From Acidobacteriaceae bacterium (GTDB lineage: Bacteria; Acidobacteriota; Terriglobia; Terriglobales; Acidobacteriaceae), in the NCBI GenBank assembly GCA_025355505.1, contig JANXZM010000049.1, positions 1-64,000 of the forward strand: DNA of 64,000 nucleotides, in the 5' to 3' direction. Of this stretch, positions 6,664-63,514 are shown piece by piece. Position 1 is the stretch's first letter. Every line of letters starts with the position of its first letter. The translations under genes were made by a program, and so were the position numbers. The notes under the pieces are model-generated. The model did not search any database. It saw nothing but the letters and a program-made list of their open reading frames with translations, and had not been told where the DNA came from.

Positions 6664-6779
6664 AAACGTCTCCTGACTAAGCCAGGCAAGAAGAATAATT
6701 GCCTGACGTTAATAAACTGTTACTTCACAGGCTGCGGAAAAAATCCGAAGCCGATGCCCAGCCCCTAAAGAGTTTGCAG

Positions 6780-6903
6780 AAAACGGTCGTCCCTCCGGGA
6801 CTTGAATCTTATTTTCTACCTTCCCCAGCGCTGAAGCGCAGGGCTAAGCTTGGTCGCCCCACCGGGGCTGGATTCTGATGTCCCGAGCAACGGGGCTGGA
6901 TGC
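6780..6903. repeat. Palindrome-rich spacer between tkt and tal-pgi
   Basis: The 240-base gap between tkt and tal-pgi contains several short inverted repeats: TCCCTCCGGGA, CAGCGCT..AGCGCAG, and GCCCCACCGGGGC, followed by a nearby repeat of CGGGGCTGGAT. These resemble the short dispersed palindromes between other genes of the window. No reading frame in the gap looks coding. Confidence 0.5.
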
Positions 6904-27106: not shown

Positions 27107-27267
27107 GCTGGTTTCATTGCGCGTAGGTTTGGGAAGGGCAGGGCTTTAGCAGCGCCGCTCAGAGCCACAAGAAATGCGGGCTTTAGCCCCAGAGGGCCAG
27201 ACGTCCCTCCCTGAGAATTATTTATGAGACCAGTTGTAAAGTTTACAGAACAGGACTGCAAAATCTT

Positions 27268-31084: not shown

Positions 31085-31446
31085 CGAAGCCTCCACTCTT
31101 GCAGTTTGGCCGTAGCGTAGCAAGGACCGGGAACAGGGTTGTCACAAGCTCGTCATTTTTGTGTACAAAAAACAAACAGAGTCGGCGATGCCGGGCATGA
31201 TTGACGGTTTGTCTGGGCTACTGACGGCGGGGGTACAGTTCGCCACAGGAACGTTTGCAGTCGTGTACCGCGAAGCCGTAGGAAGAATATCTATTTCAAG
31301 CGGGCGATCTCACAGCGGCTGCTGGCAGTAGATCGTTTTGGCGACCTCAGAAAACATTCCCAGCCTGCTTTGAACGATCCACAGTTATCTCCAAACAACA
31401 ACCGCCCTTGCATTTCGCAATCGCCGGAGACACAAGGGCAGCCAGG

Positions 31447-31536
31447 GAAGGTCTGATTAAGTGTCTTCGCGGCACACAAAACTACTGATGGGCCAGTGTT
31501 TGTACAGGAAGCGATAGACTTAATCAGACCTTCCCT
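31447..31536. repeat. Inverted-repeat unit A (first copy)
   Basis: Perfect 19-base arms AGGGAAGGTCTGATTAAGT (31447-31465) and ACTTAATCAGACCTTCCCT (31518-31536) around a 52-base centre. The right arm overlaps the left arm of the next unit by 5 bases. A related arm pair is at 52291 and 52543. It resembles a short non-autonomous mobile repeat; no transposase is present. Confidence 0.75.
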
Positions 31537-31663
31537 AGCAGCCTGTGGTGAAACTCAAATTTCAAAATCCAGCGCCTAAAGGCGCACTCAAAACAAAGCA
31601 CTTGCGGCACCGCTGAAGCGGTGCCCTGATACGAATCTTACTTTCACCACAGGCTGCTAGGGA
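31532..31663. repeat. Nested palindromic unit B (first copy)
   Basis: Outer arms are a perfect 22-base inverted repeat (31532-31553 and 31642-31663; the arm reads TCCCTAGCAGCCTGTGG and onward). Inside are two hairpins: the palindrome GCGCCTAAAGGCGC (31572-31585) and the 9-base stem GGCACCGCT / AGCGGTGCC (31606-31614, 31617-31625), followed by CTGATAC. A second copy at 63364-63496 keeps the layout with a different second stem. Confidence 0.8.
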
Positions 31664-31821
31664 TTATCTGATTCAGTCAGGTTGGGCAAGACGGGATGCT
31701 CGGAAGGGGCGACCCTCGGCGGCTAGAGCCGCTTGTGTGGTGGGTTCTAACGGCATGTCTACAGCTAGAGCCATGCCCCTTCAAAACTGTCCGGGAACCA
31801 ACTTGATTAGAGTTTCCCTAC
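31658..31821. repeat. Inverted-repeat unit C, related to 52289-52565
   Basis: Begins TAGGGATTATCTGATTCAG and ends CTTGATTAGAGTTTCCCTA, which pair imperfectly. The inner segment at 31707-31756 (GGGCGACCCTCGGCGGCT...) closely matches 52324-52376, and 31778-31821 matches 52521-52565. The hairpin GCGGCTAGAGCCGC lies near 31720. Probably a member of the same mobile-repeat family as unit A. Confidence 0.6.
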
Positions 31822-31955
31822 AAAAGCCGGCGAGATTTGGGGAGTTGAAATTCCGTGTCGGGTACGGCTTTTCGATTTTCGCCTTATAGACACAGGCCGG
31901 GATGACGGAATTTCTTCCGGTCCCGGCCCGCGCTTCTTTCACCATGGCAGCCGAC

Positions 31956-52288: not shown

Positions 52289-52590
52289 TCCGATTAAGTC
52301 TTGGTTGGCAAAAACCGGGTGATGGGCGACTCTCGGCGGCTAAAAGTCTGCCTTTGTGGCGGGTTCTAGCGGCACGGCTGAACAGGTTGCGCAAAAATGC
52401 TATGGGGGGAACCTGGAACCATAGTGGCTGAAGCCGAAGTCATTTTCAGCGGCGTATTGTCGTGCCTGAAGGGAATACCCAGATTAGAATCACGCGTCTT
52501 GCGGTGACATGTAAGGCCGCGCATTCAAAACTATCGGAGAGCCAACTTAATCAGAGCTACCCTAACAGTCCGTGGCAGAACTTCTCAAAA
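52289..52590. repeat. Composite repeat: unit C with unit B-like edge, second copy
   Basis: CCGATTAAGTCTTGGTTGGC at 52290 pairs imperfectly with GCCAACTTAATCAGAG (52541-52556), followed by CCCTAACAGTCCGTGGCAGAAC, the same order as at 31518-31560 (ACTTAATCAGA, CCCTA, GCAGCCTGTGG). The segment 52324-52376 matches 31707-31756. About 120 bases in the middle (52377-52520) are absent from the first copy. No gene is supported in 52283-52718. Confidence 0.6.
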
Positions 52591-57623: not shown

Positions 57624-57711
57624 ACACCAGCGCAATTGGAATGCGTTCTGGCCCGCCGGGGCTAAAGCCCATGCCGATCTCACAGGAGTACGCGGCCCTG
57701 AAGGGCCGCTC

Positions 57712-57804
57712 TTCCACGTTGATTTACACCTTCCACGGTGATTTACACCTTCACGGTGATTTACACCTTCCACGTTGATTCACACCTTCGCGGTGATTCA
57801 CACA
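57712..57804. repeat. Tandem repeat of five 18-19-base units
   Basis: Units start at 57712, 57731, 57750, 57768 and 57787 and follow the pattern TTCCACGTTGATTTACACC with single-base changes (G for T, C for T) and one single-base deletion. No spacers separate them, so this is not CRISPR. It lies between the convergent methyltransferase-like and M1 genes, next to GGCCCTGAAGGGCC. Confidence 0.85.
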
Positions 57805-61812: not shown

Positions 61813-63222
61813 ATGGATCCCCTTGAACTTTCTTCTGAAGACTTCCGGCGTCTGGCGGCAAACGTTGTGGAGCTGGCTGCTGAATACATTTCCACTCTGG
61901 ACGCTCGCCGCACTTTTCCTATAACCACGGGCGCGGAAGTCGAACGCCTGTTTGCGCAGGAGTTACCGGAGCAGGCGATGGGCGAGCGGGCCTTGGCCGC
62001 GCTCGGGGACGTAATCGCGCAGTCGCGGGCGCAAAACGGAAGGTTTTTTGGATATGTGCAAGGCCCGGGAGAGCCGGTGGCGGCTCTGGGCGATCTGCTG
62101 GCCTCGATCTTGAATCAGAACATGACGGCTTGGCGGTCTGCACCGGCGGGCGTGACCATTGAGCGGACGGTGGTGCGGTGGCTGGCGGAGGCGGTGGGCT
62201 GCGAGGGTTTTTTCGGAACGCTTACCGGCGGAGGGTCGGCGGCGAACCTGATGGGATTGACGATGGCGCGTGAGGCGAAGACTCCGGCCAACGAGTGCGG
62301 ACTTCGCCATGCGGCTGCGGGCGTGATCTACGCCTCCGAGCAAGTGCACATGGCGGTGCCGAAGGCTGTGGCGATGCTTGGCATCGGTCGGGAGAACCTG
62401 CGGGTTGTGCCGTGTGACGCATCCTACCGGATGATCCCGTCGCAACTGGAGCAGGCCATACGGCGCGACCAGGCGGAGGGCACGATTCCGATCGCGGTGG
62501 TTGCGTCGGCGGGCACGGTGAATACGGGGGCGATTGATCCGCTGCGAGAAATTGCCGACATCGCTCACGCGCACGGCGCATGGATGCACGTGGACGGAGC
62601 TTATGGAGCGCTGGCTGCGATTGCCGTCCCGGGAAAATTCGAGGGGCTGGCGCTTGCGGATTCGCTTTCGCTCGATCCGCACAAGTGGCTTTACCAGCCA
62701 CTCGATTGCGGATGTCTGCTGTATCGCGATGTTGGCATGGCGCGCCGGACATTCGCTTATACGGGGGACTATGCCAAGCAGCTCAGCAGCGATCCGGTGG
62801 AGGGCTTCGCATTTTTCGAGGAGTCGATTGAACTTTCGCGGCGCTGCCGCGCGCTGAAGCTCTGGCTTTCGCTGCGGTATCACGGGCTCGCGGCTTTTCG
62901 GGCAGCGATCCGGAAGGACCTGGAGTGCGCGCAGCGGCTGGCGACGGCGGTCGCGGGTTCTCCCGCGCTTGAACTACTGGCCCCGGTGGAACTGAGCGCG
63001 GTCTGCTTCCGGCACCTTTTGGGTAAGGACGCTTCCGAGGAAGAGCGCAATCGCTTCAACTTGGCTTTGCTCAAGCGCATTGTGGCGCGCGGCCGGGTCT
63101 ATCTGTCGAATGCCGTGTTGCACGGCAAGTTCTGCCTGCGTGCCTGCATTGTCAACCATCTCACCAAAGAAACGGACATTGATGCGGTGGTTCCCGAGGT
63201 ACTGGCGGCAGTCCAAGAGTGA
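61813..63222 (+). CDS. PLP-dependent aromatic-L-amino-acid-decarboxylase-type enzyme
   Basis: 469 residues of the group II decarboxylase family. The PLP lysine is K291 in LDPHKWLYQP. Also visible are GGGSAANLMGLTMARE, YASEQVHMAVPKAVAMLG, and HVDGAYGALAAI with the PLP-pyridine Asp. Substrates of relatives include DOPA, tryptophan, tyrosine and phenylalanine; aspartate/glutamate forms also exist. The actual substrate cannot be read. No ribosome site is obvious before the ATG at 61813. The gene stands alone, with the carbonic anhydrase divergent upstream. Confidence 0.9.
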   Translation: MDPLELSSEDFRRLAANVVELAAEYISTLDARRTFPITTGAEVERLFAQELPEQAMGERALAALGDVIAQSRAQNGRFFGYVQGPGEPVAALGDLLASILNQNMTAWRSAPAGVTIERTVVRWLAEAVGCEGFFGTLTGGGSAANLMGLTMAREAKTPANECGLRHAAAGVIYASEQVHMAVPKAVAMLGIGRENLRVVPCDASYRMIPSQLEQAIRRDQAEGTIPIAVVASAGTVNTGAIDPLREIADIAHAHGAWMHVDGAYGALAAIAVPGKFEGLALADSLSLDPHKWLYQPLDCGCLLYRDVGMARRTFAYTGDYAKQLSSDPVEGFAFFEESIELSRRCRALKLWLSLRYHGLAAFRAAIRKDLECAQRLATAVAGSPALELLAPVELSAVCFRHLLGKDASEEERNRFNLALLKRIVARGRVYLSNAVLHGKFCLRACIVNHLTKETDIDAVVPEVLAAVQE

Positions 63223-63514
63223 AAACAGAGGACGCGGGAACGGGCACAGGAGTACTTGAAGGCGCATGCCGCGACGCAGGCTCTGACGGAGGTGGATCGC
63301 TACATCGGCGACCGGGCAGTGAAGAGCTATCTCATCCACTGCGCACAAGCCTTTCGCCCTGAGCTTAACAGGCTGTGGTGAAACTCCAGCGCCCAAAACC
63401 AGCGCCTAAAGGCGCCCTCATAACACGGCACTTACGGTATGCCTGAACCTGAAGGCATACCCTGATACAAAACATGCTTGCACCACGGGCGGCTAAGTCA
63501 GTTCTACTCAGTTG
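63223..63514. other. Spacer holding a palindromic repeat
   Basis: About 290 bases between the decarboxylase stop and the next stop on the other strand. The repeat at 63364-63496 fills much of it. The remaining 140 bases (63223-63363) have no convincing coding sequence. Confidence 0.6.
63364..63496. repeat. Nested palindromic unit B (second copy)
   Basis: Outer arms (ACAGGCTGTGGTG near 63368 and CACCACGGGCGGCT near 63482) pair imperfectly. The inner palindrome GCGCCTAAAGGCGC (63402-63415) is identical to the first copy at 31572. The second stem is GGTATGCCT / AGGCATACC (63436-63444, 63453-63461), different in sequence from the first copy but still fully paired, and again followed by CTGATAC. 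Confidence 0.8.

Follow-up and report, generated by a model that had tools for sequence, protein, structure and literature searches.

A repeated double-hairpin unit in an Acidobacteriaceae genome, probably a RAYT-type transposon end carried within a DDE-type MITE

Di Nocera et al. 2013 (PMC3733652) describe acidobacterial TIRYT genes with terminal inverted repeats, some of which are double-palindromic, and the inverted unit that brackets ORF1552 of K. versatilis is given there as a member of a repeated family. Compensatory changes in the hairpin of REPINs are reported by Bertels and Rainey 2011 (PMC3116915). Acidobacterial TnpA-Y1 proteins of class 3, with about 600 structures in Solibacter, are described in PMC6006769, which also gives a CnGA foot.

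The window studied here is the whole stretch of 64,000 nucleotides. A preliminary description had drawn attention to a nested palindromic repeat at 31532-31663 and 63364-63496. Both copies are confirmed by the sequence, and both have the order that had been described, i.e. an outer inverted repeat, the palindrome GCGCCTAAAGGCGC, a second stem and then CTGATAC. The second stem is GGCACCGC/GCGGTGCC in one copy and GGTATGCC/GGCATACC in the other; as had been noticed, four positions are changed and pairing is intact at all four. The repeat is a genome-wide family of two nested modules, a shell and a core. We think it likely that it is a non-autonomous IS1182-like DDE MITE of about 118 bp, the interior of which would be the double-hairpin end of an acidobacterial RAYT of the TIRYT kind. 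The features are as follows.

31535..31538, no strand: left 4-bp YTAR target duplication, CTAG (sequence and duplication test on 32 copies)
31539..31553, plus strand: left terminal inverted repeat of the putative MITE shell, CAGCCTGTGGTGAAA (the same repeat lies beside DDE transposase genes)
31570..31633, plus strand: two-hairpin core of probable RAYT type (model R2, 83.5 bits; covariation)
31572..31585, plus strand: hairpin 1, GCGCCTAAAGGCGC (sequence, folding, covariation)
31606..31625, plus strand: hairpin 2, GGCACCGC-TGAA-GCGGTGCC, the covarying second stem (sequence, covariation)
31626..31632, plus strand: tail CTGATAC, a type shared with cores next to the Y1 genes of L165, L166, L173 and L189
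31642..31656, minus strand: right terminal inverted repeat of the shell
31657..31660, no strand: right target duplication, CTAG (sequence and duplication test)
63365..63496, plus strand: second copy, whole, with flanks TTAA/CTAA
63369-63383 and 63478-63492: terminal inverted repeats of the second copy
63402-63415, 63436-63461 and 63462-63468: hairpin 1, hairpin 2 and tail of the second copy
31437..31543, no strand: neighbouring inverted-repeat unit abutting the first copy, arms 31437-31462 and 31518-31543, 92% complementary
31657..31820, plus strand: neighbouring repeat with a divergent core at 31717-31785, found at at least 7 further places in the own genome with 89-94% identity

The first copy has refined bounds of 31539-31656 with CTAG on either side, while those of the second are 63369-63492 with imperfect flanks. 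Compared with the first, the second copy has a longer loop in hairpin 2 and poorer outer arms. Folded as single-stranded DNA, the first copy gives z values of -8.7 and -10.2 for the two strands; the second gives just -1.5 and -0.9. The two are 78% identical across 82 nt, which is above chance.

The genome is a 4.16-Mb draft of 119 contigs, about 96% complete. A blastn search of it gave 45 matches at approximately 40 separate places, a few of these being matches to the opposite arm or to a neighbouring repeat. Among 40 sequences, 34 copies bounded by CAGCCYGTGGTG ends were recognised, and 31 of them form alignment A1; L027 (a duplicate contig end) and the rearranged L043 and L054 were left out. 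The elements are short, bounded by the inverted repeats and lacking coding capacity, 4 of the 31 being open in any frame (about 40 codons). Near-identical copies (96-97%) occupy different sites with matching flanks. A covariance-model search of this genome and its relatives, which the preliminary description had proposed, was made with model R1. It returned 67 matches in the own genome and also matched 21 of the 23 other genomes of the genus.

The inverted repeats of the shell are CAGCCYGTGGTG, flanked by 4 bp that are mostly YTAR, and 4-bp YTAR duplications are usual for IS1182/IS5-like elements. The left and right flanks are identical in 16 of the 32 copies tested and differ in the other 16; the permutation mean is 5.98, and 2 of 20,000 shuffles are as high (p ~1e-4). 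When duplication lengths from 1 to 7 bp were compared, a length of 4 bp was the only one to exceed every shuffle. L027 and L052 were left out of this test, and the flanks of L052 would count against duplication. At 17 loci with the same shell in relatives (L071-L082, L095-L099) the flanks judged by eye are identical in 7.

The pattern YTARCAGCCYGTGGTGNAAC is widespread, occurring in at least 113 stretches from Acidobacteria, Planctomycetota, Myxococcales and others. Of the 66 short pairs of the same terminal repeat listed in other organisms, some of which overlap, 46 span 165-188 bp with other interiors. The longer element L282 (1511 bp) has CTAG on both sides and encodes a 480-aa DUF772/DDE_Tnp_1 protein that is nearest to IS1182, although it scores 175.8 against an IS1182 cut-off of 270. 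Among DDE homologues in the same genus, L326 has a variant of the terminal repeat at both ends of the gene and L327 and L342 have the exact repeat at one end; others are weaker. Shell-bearing DDE genes are thus seen in relatives and in one Bryobacteraceae MAG. Since IS1182-like DDE transposase genes in relatives are bordered by the shell repeat, the most probable reading of the shell is a DDE MITE belonging to an IS1182-like family. No autonomous shell-bearing element was present among the terminal-repeat sites examined in the own draft, where just one DDE homologue was identified, a distant one (36% over 111 residues) that has no shell element.

Other candidate partners were rejected. IS701 (PF13546, DDE_5), considered on account of YTAR, has no match in the own genome, and 0 of the 13 loci returned from relatives have the shell repeat at two mismatches or fewer. 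In the long terminal-repeat pair L249 the frames were examined by eye and none looked transposase-like; the long pairs L256, L267, L285, L287, L302, L304 and L305 have unlike flanks.

The sites occupied by shell copies are mostly intergenic, with an open frame at 6 of 30 joined sites compared with 78% of random stretches. The stretch that is absent from genomes G010 and G015 starts at 31357 and 31369 and ends at 31884 and 31885, respectively, and the corresponding region of G004 and G008 is reduced in length. This missing stretch is a block of several repeats, and therefore provides no precise empty site for the first copy. At the place of the second copy G008 retains a remnant of the right terminal repeat only, and G004 is without 63220-63513, so that among the relatives compared (G004, G008, G010, G015) no precise empty site was obtained for either copy.

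The core was modelled separately (R2; 64 positions, 61 sequences). At least 134 matches to R2 are present in the own genome, including cores outside this shell, and the model also matches 27 of 199 genomes of the phylum and 18 of 19 other genomes of the family. Forty of the own cores, mostly outside this shell, were fetched for inspection. Cores are located in this shell, in shells with terminal repeats of the GCTGCGGAAAAA or TCTGATTAAG type, or in none that is visible.

The core is linked with Y1/HUH transposase genes. A search of 41 relatives used as its query the protein encoded by L013, one of the Y1_Tnp genes of this genome. At 15 of the 16 loci L158-L173 (protein identity 41% or more, with the query locus among them) cores lie on both sides of the gene in opposite orientation; the remaining locus, L170, has a core on one side. 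None of the 14 more distant loci L174-L187 has a flanking core, and one has a weak match 1.4 kb away. Twelve further selected Y1 loci comprise five that are two-sided (one of these, L194, having an extra core between), one that is one-sided and six without a core, L191 (49% identity) being among the last. Two Y1 proteins that were tested score 94.5 and 93.1 bits with the NCBIfam model of REP-associated tyrosine transposase (NF047646; cut-off 80). At several loci the 3′ end of the Y1 gene runs into hairpin 1, which is translated as P-Q/R-R-L-K-P.

The tail types to left and right match at 14 of 15 two-sided loci, the left unit of L167 being rearranged. Placed on a tree of 20 proteins from 23 Y1 loci (no protein was recognised in L173, L191 and L193), the six tail types require five changes, which is the minimum, and 0 of 200 shuffles are as low. 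In these sequences, the tail type of the core follows the transposase tree. The CTGATAC tail is shared by the window element and the cores beside the genes of L165, L166, L173 and L189; on the tree the CTGATAC group has moderate support only (84/83). The tail of L188 is TCCGATAC, one letter different, and was grouped with CTGATAC; the Y1 protein of L158 goes with the CCACCCAA type. The own genome's Y1 copy of the CTGATAC type, L188, is truncated, so present mobility of the repeat by means of the RAYT is doubtful there. An intact partner transposase, either Y1 or DDE, was not found in this draft, which is about 96% complete. The complement of the tail reads GTATCAG rather than a GTAG foot, and we therefore do not class the core as a GTAG REP.

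We note several related units. A sister DDE-type inverted repeat, CAGGCTGCGGAAAAA and its variants, occurs in the window near 52369-52398, in L087 at about 1501-1638, and in L384, L399 and L402. Of 137 matches resembling its terminal repeat, 16 are flanked by TTCA, 9 by TGAA, 4 by TTTA and 3 by TAAA, several of these belonging to one tandem array; all four are loop sequences of RAYT cores. This suggests that DDE elements may insert into hairpin loops, for example between gcggcacggctgaa and CAGGTTGCG. In L040, L047, L055 and L060, and in L045 and L057, other IS-like ends start inside the hairpin-2 loop, reading CCTGAAG followed by GTGTAAAG or GTGTTCAG. Most of them are close to the end of a contig, and the loop thus seems to receive other elements as well. 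At 6728-6869 of the window a fragment of the sister repeat and a hairpin 1 adjoin an Rfam Acido-Lenti-1 match (6824-6869), itself a hairpin and the sole Rfam match elsewhere in the window. A core with a TCTTCCACG tail type lies at 57656-57718 and is followed by tandem ggtgatttacaccttccac-like units, and a minus-strand match at 27129-27192, immediately ahead of an ORF, is a weak and divergent core (22.2 bits). The own genome has three further Y1_Tnp genes (L009, L011, L015) near a different long inverted repeat, AAGGATGGGGCACCCAC; these genes apparently represent another Y1 system.

Covariation had been put forward as the sign of a folded, copied nucleic acid, and on a larger sample this stands. 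The 31 own copies (30 distinct) have 24 double-changed cells compared with 5.8 in shuffles; 22 of the 24 are in hairpin 2 and none in hairpin 1. These changes mainly separate two subfamilies, so that a small number of ancestral events contribute repeatedly to the count. A stronger test used 61 diverse cores, in an alignment based on sequence only, though its members were found by a structure model. It gave 111 double-changed cells against 34.8 in shuffles, with 97.2% of cells paired and both hairpins covarying, while one-sided intermediates with standard pairs are few (7 cells compared with the 111). The preliminary description had accepted that it would be overturned by an ordinary IS-derived end. 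That applies in part: the outer repeat is evidently that of an IS1182-like DDE transposon, but the covarying stems appear to belong to a different transposase system.

An RNA under selection is expected to keep many more G-U than A-C pairs, and a DNA hairpin is not. Alignment A4 draws on 93 selected sources and has 134 distinct rows, each aligned by fitting to the model; 1638 of its 1719 cells are Watson-Crick, with 28 G-T, 21 A-C and 32 other. Alignment A3, which omits L112 and L116 (no core), L095, the second L092 unit and three opposite-strand matches and has four own cores added, gives 8 G-T and 13 A-C. The hairpins of the own copies give 2 and 4. When the outer arms are included the own copies have 29 G-T against 15 A-C, an excess that arises because the two terminal repeats themselves differ by a U-G pair. 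G-T and A-C are thus similar in number in the core, and both are rare, so DNA hairpins provide a better fit than RNA. The paired stem changes most likely reflect the DNA hairpins of a transposon end and not a new RNA.

A structured RNA, either a small RNA or a cis-regulatory leader with covarying stems, would agree with the strong covariation and the intergenic positions, but beyond the lack of a G-U excess in the core there is no Rfam match over the element at gathering score (one weak sub-threshold hit lies there), and a scan of 31400-31900 gave no sigma-70-like promoter. Moreover the unit inserts with YTAR flanks, and cores are found at the ends of transposase genes; we consider an RNA highly improbable. 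Five weak Rfam hits in 31400-31800 are below their gathering scores and were taken as chance. The hairpins might instead be kept as transcription terminators or as mRNA-stabilising stems for neighbouring genes, roles often proposed for REPs (PMC3733652). Hairpin 1 on the minus strand did score as terminator-like, one of two such sites in 31400-31900, yet the shuffle mean is 0.8, so the count is close to shuffle level, and no other site of the element passed the scan, making this very unlikely.

Quasi-palindrome correction, whereby template switching in replication turns imperfect hairpins into perfect ones, could also generate paired changes, with the MITE spreading any palindrome and no selection acting on shape. 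The abundance of double changes with few one-sided intermediates is what such a process would give, as is the variation in length of the hairpin-2 apices from TGAA to TGAACACCTGAA. Against this the loop and the tail are conserved, the two-hairpin layout is kept across many different stems, and the cores bracket RAYT genes at fixed places. Template switching explains the change of the stems and not the retention of the unit, so it may act alongside the main explanation; as an alternative to it we regard it as unlikely. Lastly, the whole could be an ordinary MITE in which the inner hairpins are shrunken remnants of its own parent IS and no second transposase is involved. The near-identical copies at different sites with matching flanks are what an ordinary MITE would leave. 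However, the same core and tail bracket the RAYT genes of L165, L166, L173 and L189, the core is found in other shells, and only two of the 66 short same-repeat pairs listed in other organisms contain it, leaving 64 without (the two are L238 and L278; L244, of 60 bases, was outside this search). The probability of this explanation is accordingly very low, comparable to that of an RNA.

We therefore favour a RAYT-type end carried within a DDE MITE. Cleavage at the CAGCCYGTGGTG ends would be expected from a DDE transposase acting in trans, and the excised unit would insert at YTAR with duplication of 4 bp. The interior module would fold on single-stranded DNA, where a Y1/HUH enzyme could recognise its shape, its loop and the clade-specific tail, here CTGATAC. 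If the enzyme reads these elements, paired changes in the stems would be tolerated. At the level of sequence the proposal draws on the shell, the flanks, the shell-bearing DDE genes, the inverted cores around RAYT genes, the co-segregation of tail and transposase, and the covariation. We infer transposition, the action of either enzyme on the copies, the working of the hairpins as single-stranded DNA and the entry of the core into the shell.

A more speculative and rather doubtful extension is that the element has two engines. The RAYT hairpin unit, present in several DDE MITE shells, might spread as single-stranded DNA by Y1/HUH or as double-stranded DNA by DDE. If DDE elements land in RAYT hairpin loops, each system would time and again be colonised by the other, which might benefit both rather than being an accident.

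Taken singly, the two halves are familiar kinds of element; what is unusual is the nesting of the RAYT end in a MITE, the several shells and the matching of tail with transposase. Among the titles of open-licence papers that were screened, none describes a RAYT end inside a MITE. The repeat would clearly exemplify a transposon end that is housed in the shell of a different transposon. It also indicates that transposase-linked DNA hairpins can give RNA-style covariation, a trap for non-coding RNA scans. With at least five tail types following the transposase tree, the genus offers a direct means of testing whether a RAYT reads the stem, the loop or the tail.

Of the known systems the TIRYTs (PMC3733652) resemble the core and its genes, being acidobacterial Y1/HUH genes related to RAYTs and bracketed by inverted units unlike GTAG REPs. 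Gene ends that overlap the repeat are reported there too. The likeness is one of gene type and arrangement with that account, in which tsa392, aba1552, acp645 and gma794 form a protein group. The parts of the account used for the comparison describe no nesting within a DDE MITE such as we propose here. The class 3 TnpA-Y1 genes of PMC6006769 are likewise acidobacterial and flanked by high-copy structures, but class 3 has a Y----Q motif, whereas the Y1 proteins here have YIH-NPV or similar, resembling the class 2 motifs of the same source. The core has the features of REPs and REPINs in being a repeated palindromic unit (at least 134 matches) beside a RAYT gene (two-sided at 15 of 16 loci). As with REPINs and their RAYTs (PMC3116915), two hairpins appear to form one mobile unit, with a link to a Y1 transposase, intergenic location and compensatory changes. 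Unlike REPINs it has no GTAG foot, its two hairpins are dissimilar, and it lies within a probable MITE that is flanked by a 4-bp duplication. The shell, for its part, is like IS1182/IS5-like DDE insertion sequences and their MITEs, being short and coding-free, with terminal inverted repeats, 4-bp YTAR flanks and shell-bearing DDE genes in relatives. It differs from such MITEs in that the putative parent protein is below the IS1182 cut-off, and in that the interior appears to be a foreign RAYT-type module rather than a shrunken IS.
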